Under the pieces are notes generated by a model. It was not told the origin of the DNA. It did not search any database and saw only the letters and a list, made by a program, of their open reading frames with translations. 36,629 nucleotides of DNA from an uncultured Nitrosomonadales bacterium (GTDB taxonomy: Bacteria; Pseudomonadota; Gammaproteobacteria; Burkholderiales; Methylophilaceae): NCBI GenBank assembly GCA_913048465.1, contig CAJWVO010000012.1:1-36629 (forward strand), read 5' to 3'. Both the position numbers and the translations under genes were made by a program. Positions 1,359-24,500 of the stretch are shown in pieces. Each line of letters begins with the position of its first letter. Position 1 is the first letter of the stretch.

Positions 1359-3191
<1,833 letters not shown>

Positions 3192-12227: not shown

Positions 12228-14774
12228 CTACTTAAATTGGTACCCGATGGTGATCCAGGCAGCCTGAGGTGATCCAGGTATCACACCAACACCTCTGAAT
12301 GCCTCAGAACGTACATTATTATTTACACCAGTAAAGCCATTCATCAACAATCTACCACCGTTGTAGTAATTCTTGTCCAGTAGGTTAATCGCTTTCAGGC
12401 TTACTAACCAGTTTTTCGCTGGGCTCCAATTCAAGTCAGCATTTAGTAAGAAATAACCTGGGTTTTCACCATCACCATTATGTTTTTGATTTTCGTTACC
12501 CATCATGTATGACTTACCATAAGCTAAACCAGTGAGTCCAAGTCTTAAATTTGGAGTTGCCTCGTAATTTAGACGCATTTTAAGTCGGTGCTGGGGAATG
12601 TTGGCCAATTGATCTCCTCGTTTTACGTCAATACCAGAGGTTTCAATACCCACGTTATCCTCAATCCACTCAACGAAGTCATCTTCATCAGAGCTATCTG
12701 CAATGGTATCACCTTCCTCAATATCGGATACATCATTGCCGCCCCAGATTGTCTCTCCATACAAACCTGCTAAGGCCTCTAGTGTCTCCTTTGCTTTATC
12801 GTCATCATCAACCAAGTCATCATCATCGAATGAATTGAAGGCATTTGATGTAACCGTTCTAGACGAGTTAGCATCTGATAGTAATCGGATGTCAGAGTCG
12901 TATGTCGCATTAACATACCCATAAGAACCGGACCAACTAACTTTACTGCCTTGACCGAAGAGATCAAGACCGAATAAGCCGGAACCAGAAACACCAACAT
13001 CAATCCCGTCACGTCGTGTACGGCCCACGTTATCAAAATATCCAAGGCCATTTTGTGCATTACTGTTAATAAATTGAATATCATCATGATTCATTGCGTG
13101 GTAAATCGCTGCATTCCATTTCAGATCACTAGTTAAGCGTCCTGAAGCTCCAGCCTCGTAAGTTTTTGAGACGATGTCGTCTAGTGGTGGATCATCCGCC
13201 ATCTGTGTTGGTAAGCTACAAGCAATCGCTGGATTCGAACAACCGAGCTCAATCGATGTTGGCGCACGATTTGATTCACTATATGAAACATAGGTCTGAT
13301 AATTTTCAGTTGGTTTGTAAGTTACGCCGATAGTCGGATTAATTCGAGAATAACTAGCTTTCTCAGTTAATGAACCCTCACTTTGGTCAGCCCTTCTGTC
13401 CTTGTTATCGATCTCGGTGTAGTTATAACGTAAGCCGCCAGTCACGTGCCACTGATCATTTAATGATAATGTATCTACTGCATACAAACCTGCTGTCTTC
13501 ATTCTACCTTGAAGATCAGAGTTATTCTCATACTCGCCAGTATTTGTATCAATTACGCGTGTATTTCCTATAAAACTCGAACCTTCATACTCGTTTTGAA
13601 CAAACCCAATTAATGATGTTTCTAAATTAACACCAGTCACCAAATGGTTCTTATATCCAAACAAATCATCAGTAAAAGTCAATTGAGCTGTAATGCCATA
13701 CTTATCCTGTTTCGTTTTAGTGGTTCTTGTTTCTGCCTCGACTTCGTCAATTTCATTCCCTTGATTAACCATGTAGCGACTGAGAGTAGAGTTTAGGCCG
13801 CTGTTAGTAAAATTATCTCCATCAAACTCAATTTCTGCATCACCGTTCAGAGTGTATCGATTTGATTGAACATAATACGCATTAGCACTGAGCATGACTG
13901 TGTCAGAAATGATGTCTGTGTAAGATAAGTTAAATTTGTTATAACGATTTTCCGTAGCGTCAGGCACGGTATTTACGCCAGAATTATCAGCGCCTAATAA
14001 GTATTTAGGAGCAAGGCCATTACCAATAAGATTATTAGATGCTCCGGTGTAACTTAACTCAACTCGACCCCCAGTCTCAAGATCCAAACCAATTTTACCA
14101 AAGGCCTGATTTAAGTGGGATGGGGAGTAATCACGCCACCCATTCTCTGATATATGGTTGTAGCCGAAGTAGTAATCAATGTTGGTACCATCAATAATAC
14201 CGCCCATCTCAATCAATCCGGCAGATCGATCCCATGAACCTGCAGTTGCAGAGATCACACCTTTATTGAATAACTTACCATTCTTAGTCTGCATTGAAAT
14301 GGCGCCACCTAAAGTATTCAAACCATAAATTGGGTTACTGCCGCCTACCACCTGGGCACCTGATAGAGCCCAAGTTGGAATTGTGTCCCAAAGAACCACA
14401 TCACTAAAAGGTTGGTTCTCGCGAACGCCGTCCACATAGATAGATAGTCCTTGAGGGTTACCTGCAATCGATCCAGCAGAATAACCTCTGTAAAACACTT
14501 CAGGTTGCCAAGGGTTACCGCCAACTTCATTAAAAGAAATACCCTGTGTGTTGTTGTTTAAGTAATCAGCTAAAGATACACCAGACTGTTGCTGAACATC
14601 TTCAGGTTTAATTACAGTGATAGATCCTGGCACAATCGACTGATCCAGACCAATGGATGGGAGTGGTGCGGGACTATACACATTAATTTTGCTGGTCTCA
14701 AGCTCTTCTGCATGAGCTGTGTAAGCTAGAGCAGAGAGAACTGCCAGACTTAATTTAGTTTTTGTTAATTTCAT
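12228..14774 (-). CDS. TonB-dependent outer-membrane receptor
   Basis: An 848-residue receptor: signal peptide (cleavage about AHA-22 before EELE), a TonB-box-like 'KINVYSP' (residues 29-35), a plug domain (about 45-170, with 'GLSIYVDGVRENQPFSDVV' and 'NPIYGLNTLGGAIS') and a C-terminal beta-barrel ending 'ITIGYQFK'. Residues 648-705 form an acidic extracellular-type insert, with FDDDDLVDDDDK and SDEDDFVEWIED (12660-12827). A Cys pair occurs in 'GCSNPAIAC'. AAAGGA precedes the ATG, and a GGGATAATGTCCC palindrome lies 56 bases upstream. Context (PepSY protein, acidic propeller, two-component genes) suggests uptake of a metal or metallophore, possibly lanthanide; the ligand is not readable from sequence. 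Confidence 0.93.
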   Translation of the reverse strand: MKLTKTKLSLAVLSALAYTAHAEELETSKINVYSPAPLPSIGLDQSIVPGSITVIKPEDVQQQSGVSLADYLNNNTQGISFNEVGGNPWQPEVFYRGYSAGSIAGNPQGLSIYVDGVRENQPFSDVVLWDTIPTWALSGAQVVGGSNPIYGLNTLGGAISMQTKNGKLFNKGVISATAGSWDRSAGLIEMGGIIDGTNIDYYFGYNHISENGWRDYSPSHLNQAFGKIGLDLETGGRVELSYTGASNNLIGNGLAPKYLLGADNSGVNTVPDATENRYNKFNLSYTDIISDTVMLSANAYYVQSNRYTLNGDAEIEFDGDNFTNSGLNSTLSRYMVNQGNEIDEVEAETRTTKTKQDKYGITAQLTFTDDLFGYKNHLVTGVNLETSLIGFVQNEYEGSSFIGNTRVIDTNTGEYENNSDLQGRMKTAGLYAVDTLSLNDQWHVTGGLRYNYTEIDNKDRRADQSEGSLTEKASYSRINPTIGVTYKPTENYQTYVSYSESNRAPTSIELGCSNPAIACSLPTQMADDPPLDDIVSKTYEAGASGRLTSDLKWNAAIYHAMNHDDIQFINSNAQNGLGYFDNVGRTRRDGIDVGVSGSGLFGLDLFGQGSKVSWSGSYGYVNATYDSDIRLLSDANSSRTVTSNAFNSFDDDDLVDDDDKAKETLEALAGLYGETIWGGNDVSDIEEGDTIADSSDEDDFVEWIEDNVGIETSGIDVKRGDQLANIPQHRLKMRLNYEATPNLRLGLTGLAYGKSYMMGNENQKHNGDGENPGYFLLNADLNWSPAKNWLVSLKAINLLDKNYYNGGRLLMNGFTGVNNNVRSEAFRGVGVIPGSPQAAWITIGYQFK

Positions 14775-14829
14775 AAAAATTCCTTTATTGCTTTTAAGTG
14801 ATTTAATAACAAAATCATTGATTTAAGTA

Positions 14830-14842
14830 GGGATAATGTCCC
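14830..14842. promoter_or_regulatory. GGGAT/TCCC palindrome upstream of the TonB receptor
   Basis: GGGATAATGTCCC is a near-perfect palindrome matching the sites at 15041 and 17087. It ends 56 bases before the receptor ATG, a position suited to an activator next to the -35 region. Probably an operator for the neighbouring NarL-type response regulator; binding is inferred from recurrence only. Confidence 0.6.
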
Positions 14843-15040
14843 GCATGTTGTATCTTTATGCTTTTTTTTTAAAATATGTTGTTTTTTTGCAACAAAAACA
14901 AAAAAATGATAGTTCTTGATTAAGTCTACATATGCATTAAGTGTAAGCATTTTTTAGCCTTCATCTCGTAATTAATGATTTTTTTTTAACATAACTCAAC
15001 TTGCCTTAAAGATGAAACTTCTCACACGAGCGTGTATATC

Positions 15041-15074
15041 GGGATATTATCCCTCTTAATCAGGATTCATTCCC
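15041..15074. promoter_or_regulatory. Tandem GGGAT/TCCC operator pair, 21 bp apart
   Basis: Two 13-bp sites: GGGATATTATCCC (15041-15053, perfect palindrome with one central base) and AGGATTCATTCCC (15062-15074). The starts are exactly 21 bp apart, two helical turns. The pair ends 65 bases upstream of the ATG at 15139. The propeller/PepSY intergenic pair has the same spacing and nearly the same distance to its start codon. Confidence 0.65.
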
Positions 15075-15138
15075 TGACTCTTCATCATTAAATTTAGTTA
15101 ATATTCATAGGTATTTCTTATATCTATTTTTTCAAACC

Positions 15139-15243
15139 ATGAATGACGACTTATTATTAGTTATTGGAGTGACTGTAGGAATGATTATTCTGTTTACTCT
15201 AATTAATATATTTTACGGTACTCTGACTTCTATCTTCTATTAA
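15139..15243 (+). CDS. Possible 34-aa single-span membrane peptide
   Basis: A short ORF encoding MNDDLLLVIGVTVGMIIL followed by more hydrophobic residues and ending 'TSIFY'; it reads as one transmembrane helix with an acidic N-terminus. It stops one base before the convergent response-regulator stop codon. No convincing ribosome-binding site precedes the ATG, which lowers confidence. The argument for it is context: the operator pair at 15041-15074 has the same geometry relative to this ATG as the pair upstream of the PepSY gene. It could be a real small protein of the regulon, or the promoter may instead make a small RNA. No family recognised. Confidence 0.35.
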   Translation: MNDDLLLVIGVTVGMIILFTLINIFYGTLTSIFY

Positions 15244-15244
15244 T

Positions 15245-15865
15245 CTAGATCAGGTCATTTTCTCTAGCCGCGTTAAATAACTCAAAATCAGAACTGATCT
15301 CGATTTTTTCTTTAATGAGTGCAAGTTTGTTAGCCACAGTCTTAGGACTGATGTTAAGAAGATCCGCCACTTCGCTGTTAGTCTTTCCTGATGCCAATAA
15401 TTTTAATACCTCAAACTCGCGGGTTGTAAGTATATTTAAGTTTGTTTTATTAGATTGACTGGATTGAACAGCGTCTGATAGTTCTTGTGAGATAAAGACT
15501 TTACCTGAGAGAATGGTTTTCACAGCATCGTTTAAATTTTCAGCAAATTCACCCTTGCTGATAAATCCCATCGCCCCTGCCGTCATCACCTGGTGAATGA
15601 TCGCCGGGTTCTCATGCATCGAAAGCATGAGTACCTTTTGACTGGGGTATTTCTGTAAAATTTTTCTCAAAGTCTCAACTCCACTAATGCCAGGTAAATT
15701 AATATCCAGGATAATTAAATCAAATACCTGGTTGTTCATCAGCTGGTATGCATCTGAACCGTTACCAGCCTCATGAATAGAATCTACTTCGGGGTGCGTC
15801 GATAACACACTCTTAATTCCCTTTCGGATAATTTCATGATCATCAACTATTAAAAGTGTGGCCAT
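15245..15865 (-). CDS. NarL/FixJ-type response regulator
   Basis: A 206-residue regulator. The receiver domain (1-120) has the acidic pocket D8-D9, the phosphoacceptor D54 in 'LIILDINLPGISG', S82 and K104. A C-terminal LuxR-type HTH (about 145-190) follows: 'LTTREFEVLKLLASGKTNSEVADLLNISPKTVANKLALI'-like in order, with the key TxREhEVL and ISPKTV elements intact. It lies 45 bases after the propeller gene on the same strand, so the two probably form an operon. The likely kinase partner is the MoxY-like protein at 17907-19235. It is the best candidate to bind the GGGAT/TCCC sites around it. Resembles MoxX-type regulators of methanol oxidation. Confidence 0.93.
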   Translation of the reverse strand: MATLLIVDDHEIIRKGIKSVLSTHPEVDSIHEAGNGSDAYQLMNNQVFDLIILDINLPGISGVETLRKILQKYPSQKVLMLSMHENPAIIHQVMTAGAMGFISKGEFAENLNDAVKTILSGKVFISQELSDAVQSSQSNKTNLNILTTREFEVLKLLASGKTNSEVADLLNISPKTVANKLALIKEKIEISSDFELFNAARENDLI

Positions 15866-15910
15866 CTTTAGTTAGCTTTTATTTAAAAACAAAATTATAG
15901 TTTAAAAACG

Positions 15911-17023
15911 TTATTTATACACAGGTTCATCGAGGCTACCGTAGGTTTTCGGATAGGTGACCACACCCCATGGCTTGCCAGGCATGTCAAGACGCTTCTT
16001 TTCGGTATAGGTCATGGCATCGAGAATAAGAAACTCGTCAGAGCCGCCGCAAGCAATGAGAATATCCTCGCCGCTCGGGCTAAAACTCATGTGCCAGCAA
16101 CGCCTTGCGTTCAAGTCAACCGTCCTAAATTCTTCCCTGGACGCTATGTCATAGACAAGCATCTGTTGCGACTTGCTGGCCAGCACATAAAGGCGCTCAC
16201 CATCTTCGCTAAACATCAAGCCATAAGGATTTTTGCCCGTCGGAATGGACTCAACCACTGAGTAATTATTTCTATCATTTGCAATTAAGACTACATTGTC
16301 GCTATGTTCCATGGTCACCGCATAAAAATTTCCAACCGGCGATCGTTTAATACCTCTCGGTCTCTTACCGTGTTGCTTTAAGTCGATGGATGCAAGTTGA
16401 TCACCTGATTTGATGTCATGCACGCTCACAGTACTGTCATTTTCATTGGTGACGATAATTGCTTGTCTGTCATGGGTAAATTCAATACCCTCCGTCTCAA
16501 TCCCAGCTTCGATGTCTTGAATTATTTTTCCGTTGGTGATATTAACAACCTTGATTCGAGCCGGCTCCTCCTCCTCATCCTCATCTTCATCCTCATCGTC
16601 ATCGTCATCGTCATCTTCTTTTTTTACTGGATCATGTTTTTTTTCAGGCATGGGTTTTCCTTTTGATGACGGCTCAGTGGATACGAAGACGTGATCGCCA
16701 TACACTCGAATAAATTCCGGATTTTCCCCAACCTCTAACTGCCTATTCTGGTTATCTGATTTGAGATCGATCAGGTTAATCGAAGCGCTCCCTTTGTTGG
16801 CTGTCACTAGATATCGTCCGTCTCGAGTGATTCCAACTCCTCTAGGCTTGTCTTTATTTTCTAATTGCTGACTCACCTCATAAGTCTCAAGATTGATGAT
16901 ACTCACCCCACCCTTTTCCGTCGTAACAAATGCCAGCTCCTCTTGTTTATTGTCGGCACATCCCAGCAATGTAAGACTTATTATGAAAAAAAGGTGAAAG
17001 TGAAGTTTGAATAGCTTATGCAT
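15911..17023 (-). CDS. Lipoprotein YVTN/YncE-type beta-propeller with acidic tract
   Basis: A 370-residue protein with a lipobox signal peptide ('LTLLGC', lipidated Cys 22) and repeated YVTN-like blades such as 'RDGRYLVTANKGSASINLIDL', 'HDRQAIIVTNENDSTVSVHDI' and 'EDGERLYVLASKSQQMLVYDI'. Related propellers accompany PQQ-dependent alcohol oxidation in some bacteria. Residues 136-153 are 18 acidic residues in a row, placed in a loop between blades after a Lys-rich stretch. It is divergent from the PepSY gene across a 163-base region with two operators, and upstream of the response regulator. Probably periplasmic, anchored in a membrane, and possibly a metal-binding sensor accessory; the function is inferred. 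Confidence 0.85.
   Translation of the reverse strand: MHKLFKLHFHLFFIISLTLLGCADNKQEELAFVTTEKGGVSIINLETYEVSQQLENKDKPRGVGITRDGRYLVTANKGSASINLIDLKSDNQNRQLEVGENPEFIRVYGDHVFVSTEPSSKGKPMPEKKHDPVKKEDDDDDDDEDEDEDEEEEPARIKVVNITNGKIIQDIEAGIETEGIEFTHDRQAIIVTNENDSTVSVHDIKSGDQLASIDLKQHGKRPRGIKRSPVGNFYAVTMEHSDNVVLIANDRNNYSVVESIPTGKNPYGLMFSEDGERLYVLASKSQQMLVYDIASREEFRTVDLNARRCWHMSFSPSGEDILIACGGSDEFLILDAMTYTEKKRLDMPGKPWGVVTYPKTYGSLDEPVYK
16565..16618 (-). repeat. GAT/GAG-type trinucleotide repeat coding an acidic tract
   Basis: Eighteen codons, all GAT, GAC, GAA or GAG, encode E, seven D, three ED pairs and four E in the propeller protein. On the plus strand it is an imperfect run of tcatcg/tcatcc/tcctcc triplets. 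Such runs can change length in frame by slippage, so the acidic loop may vary between strains. Confidence 0.8.
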
Positions 17024-17086
17024 AAGAATTTTTTCCTAAGATTTACATAAAAATACATATTAATTACTTAACAAGTGAATTTAAAC

Positions 17087-17120
17087 AGGATATGCTCCCG
17101 TCCGGTCGGGATATGTGCAT
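17087..17120. promoter_or_regulatory. Tandem operator pair between propeller and PepSY genes, 21 bp apart
   Basis: AGGATATGCTCCC (17087-17099) and GGGATATGTGCAT (17108-17120, right half degenerate) start exactly 21 bp apart. They lie midway between the divergent genes: 64 bases from the propeller start and 67 from the PepSY start. The intervening bases also form TCCCG...CGGGA. Most likely a shared activator site for both promoters. Confidence 0.6.
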
Positions 17121-17186
17121 CATTGAAGATGAACTTTCTTAACCTCTCCAAGTCAGTATTTTTTTAAATTATCATAGGAATCTCAA

Positions 17187-17714
17187 ATGTTAAAAAAAGC
17201 AACACTCGCAGCCCTCATATCTTTTTCATCATTGGGTATGACAGCTCACACTGAAGAAGAAATCGCCAAATCTCTTACCTCAGGTTTAGATAAATGCTTC
17301 ATGGCGGTCAATAAAAAATATGGGGGGAACATTCTCTCACTCGAACGCGAGGTTGAAGACGGTCAGGCTGTGTATGAGCTTGATGTCAAAACCAAGGATG
17401 GTAAAGAAATTGAGATCGAATGTAACGTAGCGACCACCGAACTTTCTGACGAGGAAGTTGAAGTAGCTGCGGACGACAAAGCCTTTGTAGGTGCGGTAAA
17501 GATTTCTGCTGAAGAAGCAGAAAAGATTGCCTTAGAAAATACGCCAGGTAAGGTGGTCGAGAGAGAATATGCCTTTGAAGGTGATCTCCCTGTCTATGAA
17601 TTTGATATTTACTCTGAGAAAATTGGTCACGAAGTTGAAGTTGAAATTAATGGAGTGACGGGTGAGATCATGGAAAGCGAGGTTGAGATTTATGACATTG
17701 GGATGGATGGCTAA
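17187..17714 (+). CDS. Periplasmic double-PepSY acidic protein, lanpepsy-like
   Basis: A 175-residue protein: a signal peptide (cleavage near 'GMTA-H', residue 20) and two PepSY repeats, about 30-95 and 105-170. The repeats share a strand pattern, 'YELDVKTKDGKEIEIECN' in the first and 'YEFDIYSEKIGHEVEVEIN' in the second. The mature protein is strongly acidic with paired E/D on alternate strand positions; the first repeat has two Cys (37, 79). Architecture and size match lanpepsy, a lanthanide-binding periplasmic protein described in Methylobacillus flagellatus. AGGAA at 17176-17180 is the ribosome-binding site. It is divergent from the acidic propeller, shares its operators, and ends at a strong terminator. 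Metal binding is inferred; calcium is an alternative. Confidence 0.82.
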   Translation: MLKKATLAALISFSSLGMTAHTEEEIAKSLTSGLDKCFMAVNKKYGGNILSLEREVEDGQAVYELDVKTKDGKEIEIECNVATTELSDEEVEVAADDKAFVGAVKISAEEAEKIALENTPGKVVEREYAFEGDLPVYEFDIYSEKIGHEVEVEINGVTGEIMESEVEIYDIGMDG

Positions 17715-17868: not shown

Positions 17869-17901
17869 GGGATTTCTCACGAATGATAGTGAATCGGTCC
17901 C
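17869..17901. promoter_or_regulatory. Nested inverted repeat resembling the local operators
   Basis: The stretch begins GGGATTTCTCAC and ends GTGAATCGGTCCC, giving GGGA...TCCC outside and TCAC...GTGA inside. It recalls the GGGAT/TCCC tandem sites but the halves are one base off register. It lies between the PepSY terminator and the kinase stop codon, where no promoter is expected, so function is uncertain. Confidence 0.3.
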
Positions 17902-17906
17902 GACTT

Positions 17907-19235
17907 TTAATTACTTGTCAGTGGAATTAAAACTTTAACGATAAAGCTGCTTTTTATTTTTTTAGCAGAAAATCTACCATTTAATGCAGCTACCCGCTCT
18001 CTCATTCCGATCAATCCTAATCCCGACGTTTCTATTTTAGACTTGCGTATGCCATTATTTCTAACAATTATCTCAAGTTCATCTCTTACCTCCAAAATTG
18101 AAATGGATGTTTTTTTTGAATTACTATGTTTACTTATATTTGCGAGGCTCTCCTGAATAATACGGTAAAGGTTAATAATTTGACGCTTATCAAGAGCATC
18201 CAATTTTTCAGTTACATTTATTTCGAGCTCTACATTTTTTTGCTTATTTTTCTTGATCCATTGGTCTATCATATCATTCAGAGCGGTCTCAATACCCACC
18301 TCGTCAATAATTCCAAGGTTTAAGCTTTGCAGTAAAGTCCGTAAATCTTGAATCATAGATTTGCTGATACTTATTATTTTTTTGAGTTGTGTATTTTTAA
18401 AAGTCTGGCTCTGCTTTTCAGTGGCGACATATGCCTCAGCCTGTATGGCTGCAAGTGATTGTGCGAAGTCGTCATGCAGGTCTCGAGATATAGATTTCTT
18501 TTCGTCCTCTTGGATATTCACTACGGCCCGGTTTAGTCGGATGATCTCGTCATTATTTTTTTTTAATTGACGTGCCATGGCGTTAAATTTTTTGGATAAT
18601 GCATTGAACTCTAAGATTTTAGGGAGGGCTACGGCAACATTAAATTGTTTTTTTGCCAGCCGATCAAAAGACTCAATAAGCTGATTAATGGGAGACAGTA
18701 TTCGCGAAAAGATAATAAAAATAGATACATTAATCAAGATCACAAAAATAATTGTAACAAGCAAGCTGTTTTTAAACTGTTCCCATATTTCATTAAATTC
18801 TGAAGTAGGATCTGGTGTTAGTTTAATGTAACCAATATCTTTTCCAGAAATATTGAGTGGAATAATTTCATGTTCATAATGTTGTTTTTGTTTCCATGAT
18901 AGCAAAAAAGAAAACCATGCAGGAGTTCGTTCCTGCGTATTTTGATTTAAATTAGTCTCAAGCAACAAGTCATCTTTATTGTAATACTCGATCAATAAGT
19001 GTCTCACCGTGATGAGTTCGGAAATCCCTAGCGTTTGGTTTTCTTGTTGATATCTAATATATTCTGGGTTTTTTTGAATGGATTGCCGGATAGCATAGGA
19101 CGCTAACTGTTTCGAAGATAAAATCTCACTTTGAGTATTCTCAGCTGAATTTAATACAATAAGAATTAAACTTAAGACTATACTTAATATGAGTAGAGTG
19201 TTGACAATCAAGATAAGGCGTAACTTAAAGCTCAT
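17907..19235 (-). CDS. MoxY/UhpB-type sensor histidine kinase
   Basis: A 442-residue membrane kinase. TM1 is about residues 8-28, a periplasmic domain spans 30-155, TM2 156-177, HAMP about 178-230, then a HisKA_3 helix with H254 in 'ISRDLHDDFAQSLAAIQAEA' and a HATPase_c domain with N box 'QESLANISKHS' and 'SGLGLIGMRERV'. The segment 'DPTSEFNEIWEQF' before TM2 matches LapD/MoxY-type sensors; MoxYX controls methanol dehydrogenase in Paracoccus. The usual Asp of the ATP-lid DxG motif is Asn ('RNNG', 392-395). It starts 9 bases after tilS, so it reads as the last gene of dnaE-accA-tilS, yet lies beside its presumed partner genes. Confidence 0.9.
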   Translation of the reverse strand: MSFKLRLILIVNTLLILSIVLSLILIVLNSAENTQSEILSSKQLASYAIRQSIQKNPEYIRYQQENQTLGISELITVRHLLIEYYNKDDLLLETNLNQNTQERTPAWFSFLLSWKQKQHYEHEIIPLNISGKDIGYIKLTPDPTSEFNEIWEQFKNSLLVTIIFVILINVSIFIIFSRILSPINQLIESFDRLAKKQFNVAVALPKILEFNALSKKFNAMARQLKKNNDEIIRLNRAVVNIQEDEKKSISRDLHDDFAQSLAAIQAEAYVATEKQSQTFKNTQLKKIISISKSMIQDLRTLLQSLNLGIIDEVGIETALNDMIDQWIKKNKQKNVELEINVTEKLDALDKRQIINLYRIIQESLANISKHSNSKKTSISILEVRDELEIIVRNNGIRKSKIETSGLGLIGMRERVAALNGRFSAKKIKSSFIVKVLIPLTSN

Positions 19236-21549: not shown

Positions 21550-24500
21550 CTAATTATAAATGATTTTAACATTCTCATCTTGAAATGATTTTTTCAGATC
21601 AAAGATAAGGTTTTCGTGAGGGGCAACAGCCCAATTGTCACCTAATTTAATTTCTGCAGATCCCTCTTGATTTTGATACTCAATCACCACTGGACACCTT
21701 CCAATCTCTTGCGGATATGCTCCATTACTGTAAGGTTTCAACAATAATTTAAGTTGCTCTGGGTTAAGATTCTTACCCACATTGATTTTTATTTGTTTGG
21801 TTTTTCTACTTTGTACGGTCAATAGATCAAAAATATTCACTGCTGATACCCGATTACCTCCAGTAAACTCATCAGGACTAACTCTACCCTCCACGATCAA
21901 TAATTGATCTTCTTTTATAAGTGGATAGACCGTCGATAATAATTTACTACCAACAATCATATCTAATCTCCCCTCACCGTCATCAAGAGTCACGATGGCA
22001 ATTTTTCCTCTCTGGGTCATTCTATTTCTGATTGCCACCACTACACCAGATAGCCATTGATTATTATTTGATGGTCTTGCATCACGTAATGACTGAGGAT
22101 ACATGGCTCGAACCATTTCTTTATAATGCGAGAATGGGTGCCCGCTATAATAAAAACCTAAGGCCACCTTCTCTTCATAAATTTGTCTTTTACTATCCCA
22201 CTCATCTGTTGCAACATAATTACTCACTTCTTTGTTCACTTCCTCACCAAATAGAGAGTCCTGACCCATATGAGATTTTGATTGCTCTGCTAGAGATATG
22301 GCTTGATTGATGGATGCTAATAGGGAAGCTCTATTTTTTTCTAACTCATCAAAGGTGCCGGCGCGAATCAAAGACTCTATTACTTTTCGATTCACTTTTC
22401 GCAGATCAAGTCGAGCACAAAATTCAAATAGAGACTGATAAGGTCCATTGTTATTTCTATCCTCTAAAATGATTTCAATCGCAGCCAACCCTGTTCCTTT
22501 AATAGCCCCTAATCCATAAAGGATCTCATTATCATTTAATGGCTGAAATCTAAATATACTGCTATTAATCGACGGTGGAAGGAGCTTAATTTTGTTAAGT
22601 ACACAGTCATCAAATAAGAGTGCAATATTATCTGTATTATTCATATCTGCAGACATTGAGGCTGCAATAAATGATGAGGTGTAATGTCTTTTTAAATACG
22701 CAGTTTGGTATGCTATTTTTGCATAAGCAGCCGCATGAGATTTATTAAAACCATATCCAGCAAACTTTTCTAGTAAGTCGAATAGGTTTGAAGCCTGCTG
22801 TTTTTCTAAGCCGTTTTGAGTGGCTCCTTGAATAAACACTTCTCGCTGGGCATCCATTTCTTCCACTTTTTTCTTACCCATAGCGCGCCTTAAAAGATCT
22901 GCACCGCCCAGAGTATACCCAGCAACAGTCTGAGCTATTTGCATCACCTGCTCTTGATACACAGCAATGCCATAGGTTTCTTTCAAAATCTCTTCTGTGG
23001 ATGGATGGGGATAAGATACCAATTGTTGCCCGTGTTTTCTTTTACAAAAATCTGGAATCAAATCCATTGGACCGGGACGATATAAAGCAACCAAGGCAAT
23101 AATATCCTCAAAGCAGTCCGGTTTAGCCTGTTTCAGCATATCCTTCATGCCTCTTGATTCCAATTGGAAGACTGCAGTCGTATTCGCATTACTTAACCAC
23201 TCAAAGGTCGCTTCATCATCAAGAGGAATATCATCTAAATGAATGGGTGATTTGCCTTCGGCGGCTCTCATCTTATTGGCATTATTAAGAGCCATAGATA
23301 AAATTGTTAAGGTTCTTAAGCCGAGGAAATCAAATTTAATAAGGCCGATTGATTCCACATCATCTTTGTCAAATTGGCTGACCATCCCTTCACCATCTTC
23401 TTGGCAATATAAAGGTGAGTAGTCTGAAATTTTTCCTGGAGCTATTAGAACGCCTCCTGCATGCATCCCTACATTCCTAACCAAACCCTCTAGCTTTAGG
23501 GCAAGATCAAAAAGCTCTTTTACCTCTTCTTCATTTTTTATTCTTTGTTGAATTTGCTCTTCTTTTTCAATGGCGTCTTTTAAAGTGATGCCCAATTCCA
23601 TAGGGATTAATTTGGCAATGCCGTCAACAAAAGGAAAGGGTAAATCGAGTACTCGACCAACATCTCTAATCACCGCTCTAGCGGCCATGGTACCAAAGGT
23701 AACGATCTGACTAACCGCGTCATATCCATATCGCTCCTTTACGTACTCAATAACTCGGTCTCGACCCTCTTGGCAAAAATCAATATCGAAATCTGGCATG
23801 GAAACCCGCTCAGGATTCAAAAATCTCTCGAACAGTAAGTTGTAAGAGAGCGGGTCAAGATCAGTAATACCAAGAGCAAAGGCTACCACAGAGCCAGCAC
23901 CTGATCCCCTACCCGGCCCAACCGGAACATTATTTTCTTTTGCCCAGTTAATAAAGTCTGCAACGATTAAGAAATAACCAGCATAGCCCATTTGATTAAT
24001 GACATTGATCTCAAAATGTAATCGATCCAGATACTTTTTTTCTTGAGTTTTAAAATTCTCCACTTCAGGGTATAAATTTTTAAGTTTTTTTTCTAATCCA
24101 TCGATGGCAGTTTTTTCCAAATACTCATTAATCGTTAACCCTTCCGGAATTGGAAAATCAGGAAGGAAAACATTCCCTAACTCAAATTCAAAATTACACC
24201 TTTTGCTAATTTCTAAAGTATTATTAATCGCTGACGGAATATCATCAAATAAAGCGACCATCTCCTCAGGTGTTTTGAAATATTGTTCAGCAGTGAAGTT
24301 TTTTGGTCTACGCTGATCTCCCAGCACATACCCATCAGCAATACATGTTTTTGCCTCATGCGCCTGAAAATCTTCTTTTTTAATAAATTGAATAGGTTGA
24401 GTGGCGACCAGTGGAATATCTAAATCATATGCAAGTTGTGCTGTAGCTAAAATTAAGCTCTCCTGCTCCTCGACTTTTTTTGCTACCTCGTAACGCTGGA

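Follow-up and report, generated by a model that had tools for sequence, protein, structure and literature searches.

The stretch analysed here, called the window below, covers positions 1 to 36,629 of a contig of an uncultured Nitrosomonadales bacterium of the Methylophilaceae (CAJWVO010000012.1, forward strand), in which a short dyad, RGGA-N5-TCCY (13 base pairs, bp), recurs ahead of genes of one cluster. The cluster contains a TonB-dependent receptor gene (12228..14774, minus strand; profile matches), an open reading frame (ORF) of 34 codons for a conserved small hydrophobic protein (15139..15243, plus strand), a NarL/LuxR-type response regulator gene (15245..15865, minus strand; Response_reg, PF00072, and GerE, PF00196), a beta-propeller gene with an acidic run (15911..17023, minus strand; profile matches), a gene for a two-domain, LanPepSY-like PepSY protein (17187..17714, plus strand; PF03413) and an MxaY-like sensor histidine kinase gene (17907..19235, minus strand; HAMP, HisKA_3 and HATPase_c). 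The regulator is the putative binder of the dyads, and the receptor, the small ORF, the propeller and the PepSY gene are their putative targets. By our own handles the window genome is G000 and its sister genome, which is complete, is G003.

We distinguish four full sites and a half-site, none of them assigned to a strand. Site 1, GGGATAATGTCCC (14830..14842), stands ahead of the receptor gene; sites 2, GGGATATTATCCC (15041..15053), and 3, AGGATTCATTCCC (15062..15074), form a tandem pair ahead of the 34-codon ORF; site 4, AGGATATGCTCCC (17087..17099), lies between the propeller and PepSY genes and is followed by the half-site GGGATATGTGCAT (17108..17120), which has no TCCC half. The first-pass annotation, made from the letters of the window, had reported all five, and on re-reading its coordinates and sequences were correct. 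The distances to the start codons that it gave (56 bp for the receptor, 65 bp for the 34-codon ORF, 64 bp for the propeller and 67 bp for the PepSY gene) agree with the site and ORF coordinates, and the start-to-start spacing of 21 bp in both tandem pairs is exact in the window and also in G003. Its description of GGGAT and TCCC halves at all five places applies to the four full sites; the one at 17108 has the GGGAT half alone, and two sites start with AGGAT. The strict dyad RGGA-N5-TCCY is thus fitted by four of the five, the exception being 17108. The statement that no comparable site occurs elsewhere stands for the strict form, as all four strict matches in the window fall within the intergenic stretches 14775-15138 and 17024-17186, but not for a relaxed one, since GGGATANNATCCC has a match with one mismatch at 23008, inside a gene. 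A degenerate site at 17869 was not counted because it is off the 13-bp frame and close to the 3' end of the kinase gene. An exact match to the tandem pattern found at the PepSY promoter exists at this locus only, in G000 and in G003. Dimers of NarL-family regulators bind inverted half-sites, and BvgA targets carry tandem dimers about two helical turns apart; the window sites differ from these BvgA and NarL operators in half-site letters, spacing and biology.

The number of strict matches in the window as a whole is unremarkable (whole-window shuffles contained 1.54 on average, and 15 of 200 reached 4); it is their clustering that is exceptional. In dinucleotide shuffles of the two intergenic stretches the mean was 0.021, and 0 of 2000 reached two sites. 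Loose forms do not discriminate: a scan for GGGATANNATCCC with up to three mismatches, which had been suggested as a check, proved non-specific (72 matches in the window versus 67.5 in shuffles), and GGGATANNNTCCC with up to two mismatches gave 462 matches in the genome versus 347 for a control. This background level under loose thresholds would suit chance palindromes or intrinsic terminators, an explanation that we consider highly improbable in view of the intergenic shuffles, of the conservation and family-wide counts described below and, for terminators, of a terminator scan that found none at the sites. A promoter scan stayed at shuffle level (7 found versus a mean of 7.7). Within one mismatch, GGGATANNNTCCC occupies 21 distinct places in the genome, 17 coding and 4 intergenic, and three of these four are at this cluster. 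The form RGGAN5TCCCG gave 7 matches in G000 versus 3 for the control, and 8 versus 3 in G003, where all its intergenic places are at this locus. We call a place "intergenic" when it lies in no ORF of 90 codons or more (60-70 codons for the genome placements of GGGATANNNTCCC and RGGAN5TCCCG), the ORFs being those of our own caller. One intergenic RGGAN5TCCCG match in G000 lies elsewhere (C23:3047; position 3047 of region L106): an isolated GGGAGATAGTCCCG ahead of a cytochrome c and a glucose/sorbosone-dehydrogenase-family (sugar-dehydrogenase) gene, with a divergent pyrroloquinoline quinone (PQQ)-dehydrogenase lipoprotein nearby. As about 0.2 such intergenic matches are expected by chance (a rough estimate from the control count), we keep it as a possible regulon member only.

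Footprinting in relatives, also suggested at the outset, bore the sites out. Gene order and all sites, including the GGGATAT of the half-site, are kept in G003. Between G000 and G003 none of the 32 outer positions of the four full sites has changed (8 bp per site), versus 8 of the 20 central ones (5 bp per site; changes counted by eye from the alignments), so that the halves are conserved while the centre drifts. In five other genomes of the genus (G001, G014, G005, G015 and G008) the genes for the receptor, the kinase and the regulator follow one another, and the small ORF and the PepSY gene are divergent from this row; the intergenic stretch holds three copies near TAGGAA-N3-TTCCTA in the same 13-bp frame. 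These copies are 37 and 27 bp apart in three of the five genomes and 36 and 37 bp apart in the other two. The 21-bp spacing is therefore a feature of the window and G003, specific to the window lineage and not shared throughout the genus.

Across the family the element follows a gene set made up of the histidine kinase, the NarL-type response regulator, the TonB receptor and the two-domain PepSY protein. We took 20 regions centred on PepSY genes, from 119 genomes with a match, and 20 centred on kinase genes, from 180, picked by score and genus spread. RGGAN5TCCY occurs 78 times in 41 family stretches (506 kb) versus 15 and 10 times for two control patterns, the excess lying outside ORFs (62 versus 2 and 2; inside ORFs 16 versus 13 and 8). 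With the window left apart, intergenic sites were present in 28 of the 31 fetched regions with a kinase or regulator versus 2 of the 9 PepSY-centred regions without either. They were found in 10 of the 11 PepSY-centred regions where a kinase or regulator was matched, the exception, L075, having one regulator of 33% identity more than 6 kb away, and in 18 of the 20 kinase-centred regions, the two exceptions, L159 and L162, ending at contig ends. The two regions with a site and without the pair are L061, which ends before the pair would appear, and L069. In some family regions the site adjoins a neighbouring gene and not the kinase-regulator pair itself. Sequence comparison shows that the sites exist, that they are conserved and that they go with the gene set. 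The footprint and the family-wide tracking of the kinase and regulator genes support what the first-pass annotation had proposed, namely a small regulon with a probable binding site for the local regulator; the family-wide range of the element and its presence at methanol dehydrogenase promoters go beyond that proposal. As a side observation, in four regions from one genus (L072 at 8520, L071 at 7767, L068 at 6279 and L069 at 1585) the PepSY gene is closely followed by a dyad; in L072 there is no clear gene behind this dyad.

The regulator itself has the receiver plus GerE, NarL-type architecture of MxaB. In the regulator tree it falls in a genus clade of 14 rows (99/99) within 34 Methylophilaceae rows, and a separate clade of 26 rows holds the Methylococcaceae regulators, including those divergent from mxaF; the tree lost 4 of 13 intended extra rows to a filter (L321, L326, L334 and L338), and genes outside set length ranges were dropped during gene collection. 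Replacement by an unrelated regulator was first suspected because the protein is only 41% identical to its G001 counterpart, versus 88% for the receptor. We disfavour it: the regulator stands on a long branch (which carries a long-branch warning) inside the genus clade, and rapid divergence therefore fits better. The recognition helix reads KTVANKLALIKEK in the window and G003; in the other local-type regulators of the Methylophilaceae it is mostly KTVANYQT-x-IKQKL. The half-site letters were tabulated from hand-listed strict sites, so that those set by the pattern carry no information. In the other genomes of the genus, position 5 of the operator is A in 40 of 42 half-sites; the 16 half-sites of G000 and G003 have T ten times, C four times and A and G once each, and the 72 half-sites of other genera have A in 41, G in 18, T in 12 and C in 1. 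Judging from these sequences, the operator letters and the recognition helix changed together in the window lineage. That both changes are in the same two genomes, and that the sites of the same-genus relatives stand ahead of the receptor-kinase-regulator genes, argues against a different binder, either a second NarL-type regulator or a distant MxaB-like protein, for which the local pair would be one further target. In favour of such a binder, the genome does encode a second NarL-type regulator (G000:C6:17314), and regulators at the MxaB position and local-type regulators adjoin the same consensus in different taxa; on balance we regard it as improbable.

The kinase provides the link to known systems. 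The P-x-x-E-x-x-E-x-W motif at the end of the periplasmic domain is common to all 26 aligned kinases (E146 and E149 in the window kinase), as are E37, R78 and H79 (window numbering), and PF16448, the LapD/MoxY periplasmic domain, was found at E <= 0.01 in 20 of the 26. Among the kinase matches of the same genus, those in G008 and G015 (loci L138 and L140) are each listed with one internal TGA. According to the accessible part of PMC5018670, the MxaY kinase of Methylomicrobium buryatense controls the lanthanide switch upstream of MxaB, a LuxR-type regulator whose gene is described as divergent from mxaF, and the exchange E147G makes MxaY constitutively active; MxaY carries the LapD/MoxY domain (PMC6115532, excerpts). 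We infer that the E146/E149 motif of the window kinase is equivalent to E147 of MxaY, so that the two would share a kinase family with a conserved periplasmic glutamate. In the portions available of PMC6277846, the mxa genes and mxaB of M. alcaliphilum are reported to fall with lanthanum (La). The other comparable pair is PedS2/PedR2 of Pseudomonas putida, in which, as far as the excerpts of PMC6115532 go, the kinase is active without lanthanide and, when La is absent, phosphorylates PedR2, a LuxR-type regulator of PQQ dehydrogenases; PedS2 has a different periplasmic domain. No binding site is given for MxaB in the available part of PMC5018670, and the term "binding site" is absent from the text of PMC6115532. 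No description of such an operator was found in the literature searched, most subscription journals lying outside the search, and the mechanism of rare-earth sensing in methylotrophs is described, in the parts seen of PMC11845868 and PMC5784242, as still to be worked out.

The dyad also occurs at methanol dehydrogenase genes. We used the best 80 of 395 mxaF loci, left out L276, whose upstream sequence was too short, and split the other 79 by rank, the first 29 being taken as Methylophilaceae (four of these are titled above family level). The 450 bp ahead of mxaF contained the dyad in 31 of the 50 loci outside the family and in 7 of the 29 ranked as Methylophilaceae. The 50 loci, which include Methyloversatilis, Methylobacter, Methylomicrobium, Methylomonas, Methylococcus and Crenothrix, contained 35 sites, where six control patterns gave 0-3 and the dyad with spacer 4 gave 11; the overall dyad rate in the mxaF loci, sites included, was 0.044 per 450 bp; many loci are close relatives and thus not independent. 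None of seven alphaproteobacterial mxaF loci had the dyad. In several Methylococcaceae loci it separates mxaF from a divergently oriented NarL-type regulator gene, which stands where mxaB is described to be (PMC5018670, available part). The window genome differs from the MxaY/MxaB system in that no MxaF-type enzyme was found in this 88%-complete assembly, that the putative targets are uptake and binding genes, and that its regulator belongs to another clade. Of its PQQ-dehydrogenase matches, one is a XoxF of the lanthanide type (HDEWDYD) and the other a divergent lipoprotein (HDLWGYD); here we take the Asp/Ala signature to distinguish XoxF from MxaF. In six mxaF loci (L280, L285, L290, L294, L300 and L313; six spacer-4 sites inspected) a second dyad with spacer 4, GGGATTTTTCCC, stands about 214-222 bp ahead of mxaF.

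A tight form, YGGGAVWWWNTCCYGA, gave 20 matches versus 2 for the control in eight genomes, two of which had none; 12 of the 20 are at 8 places in G175, a genome of the same family. One of these is 71 bp before a MoxR/DUF58/VWA operon, which we take for an mxaRSACKL-like operon, and the remaining places show no clear tie to methanol oxidation. In G106 a tight-form site lies 425 bp before a MoxR/DUF58/VWA-type operon, inside a 242-codon ORF by our own caller. G054, a probable Methylobacillus, has strict sites ahead of xoxF (154 and 270 bp), the kinase gene, a truncated TonB-receptor plug gene (two sites) and the PepSY gene (61 bp). The site at the PepSY gene ends 18 bp before a TATAAT and therefore overlaps or abuts the -35 region, a position suited to activation via polymerase contact, or to repression. 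The gene behind the two sites (L233 7371-8936, 521 residues) was rejected as a full TonB receptor, as Pfam shows only a plug and a phage domain (DUF3653); this receptor gene has apparently been cut by phage DNA.

That the signal is lanthanide is suggested, among other things, by the PepSY protein. It has 175 residues, PF03413 in two stretches and an N-terminus judged signal-like by eye, which is the make-up of LanPepSY, a small exported protein with two PepSY domains, and it matches PDB 9vy3 with 7e-20. The PepSY protein of G054 is identical to 9vy3 over the aligned part, and 9vy3 is probably the lanthanide-binding LanPepSY of Methylobacillus flagellatus (PMC11845868 and PMC12482762, in the parts available). 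The window protein, for which no listed homologue from outside the genus exceeds 47% identity, would then bind lanthanide in the periplasm. The sites could also be operators of the local pair and respond to another signal, for instance a different metal, methanol or the redox state. For the receptor the highest-scoring models are those of siderophore receptors, none of which reaches the cut-off, and a review reports, in its accessible part, two two-component systems at unchanged level in M. flagellatus after La addition. The MxaY-type sensor domain in relatives, the match to 9vy3 and the sites at mxaF, xoxF and the LanPepSY-like gene speak against this, and a different signal seems to us unlikely, though less so than a different regulator.

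We therefore favour the reading in which the two-component pair of the cluster uses these sites as its operators and forms a lanthanide switch of the MxaY/MxaB type that would here control uptake and sensing in a genome in which no mxaF was found; we give it a probability of roughly three in four. The membrane kinase would sense the periplasmic lanthanide status via a MoxY-type domain and phosphorylate the regulator, a dimer of which would bind the 13-bp dyad with the central bases as spacer. At tandem sites 21 bp, or two helical turns, apart, two dimers could sit on one face of the DNA. Four genes would be controlled by the bound regulator: the TonB-receptor gene for uptake, the PepSY gene for lanthanide binding in the periplasm, the propeller gene and the 34-codon ORF. 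If MxaY/MxaB and PedS2/PedR2 are a guide, the regulator would most likely take its phosphorylated, active form under lanthanide scarcity, and activation under such scarcity appears somewhat more probable than repression.

Several results weigh against this reading. The window kinase itself has no PF16448 match, and a fold search with its model matched known kinases mostly in their cytoplasmic parts, the sensor domain not being identified among the 50 matches listed. The strict site was upstream of xoxF in none of eight same-genus genomes and was missing from 22 of the 29 Methylophilaceae mxaF upstream regions. The looser DRGGAANNNNTCCYR, a pattern that barred C at the first position, was below its control genome-wide (37 versus 44 in G054, 10 versus 32 in G175). 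The second NarL-type regulator could bind instead, and T at position 5 in 12 of 72 half-sites of other genera means that this letter is not unique to the lineage.

More tentatively, RGGA-N5-TCCY may be a common operator of the proteobacterial lanthanide switch, in beta- and gammaproteobacterial methylotrophs, kept in lineages without the calcium enzyme MxaF; recognition helix and operators would have been rewritten together in the window lineage, and the regulon would include, as a conserved member, a membrane protein of 34-39 residues with a possible role in tuning the kinase or the uptake system. With a defined operator the regulon could be read from genomes and the switch examined in gel shifts and reporter assays; the operator also predicts new lanthanide genes, namely the small membrane protein, the propeller and certain TonB receptors. 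The matched change of helix and operator would also be an example from nature of a transcription factor whose specificity evolved along with its sites.

The remaining observations concern the target genes. The 34-codon ORF has a counterpart of equal length and 94% identity in G003 and hydrophobic homologues of 35-39 codons by the same sites in five relatives, i.e. it occurs in seven same-genus genomes including the window; judged by this conservation it is a real gene, and our guess is that its product tunes the kinase or the receptor. The window receptor is nearer to G001 (88%) than to the sister G003 (79%), and the PepSY protein and the regulator are far nearer to G003, so that exchange of the receptor between lineages is likely. 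The propeller protein has a long acidic (Asp/Glu) run, encoded at 16560-16620, which is possibly metal-binding.

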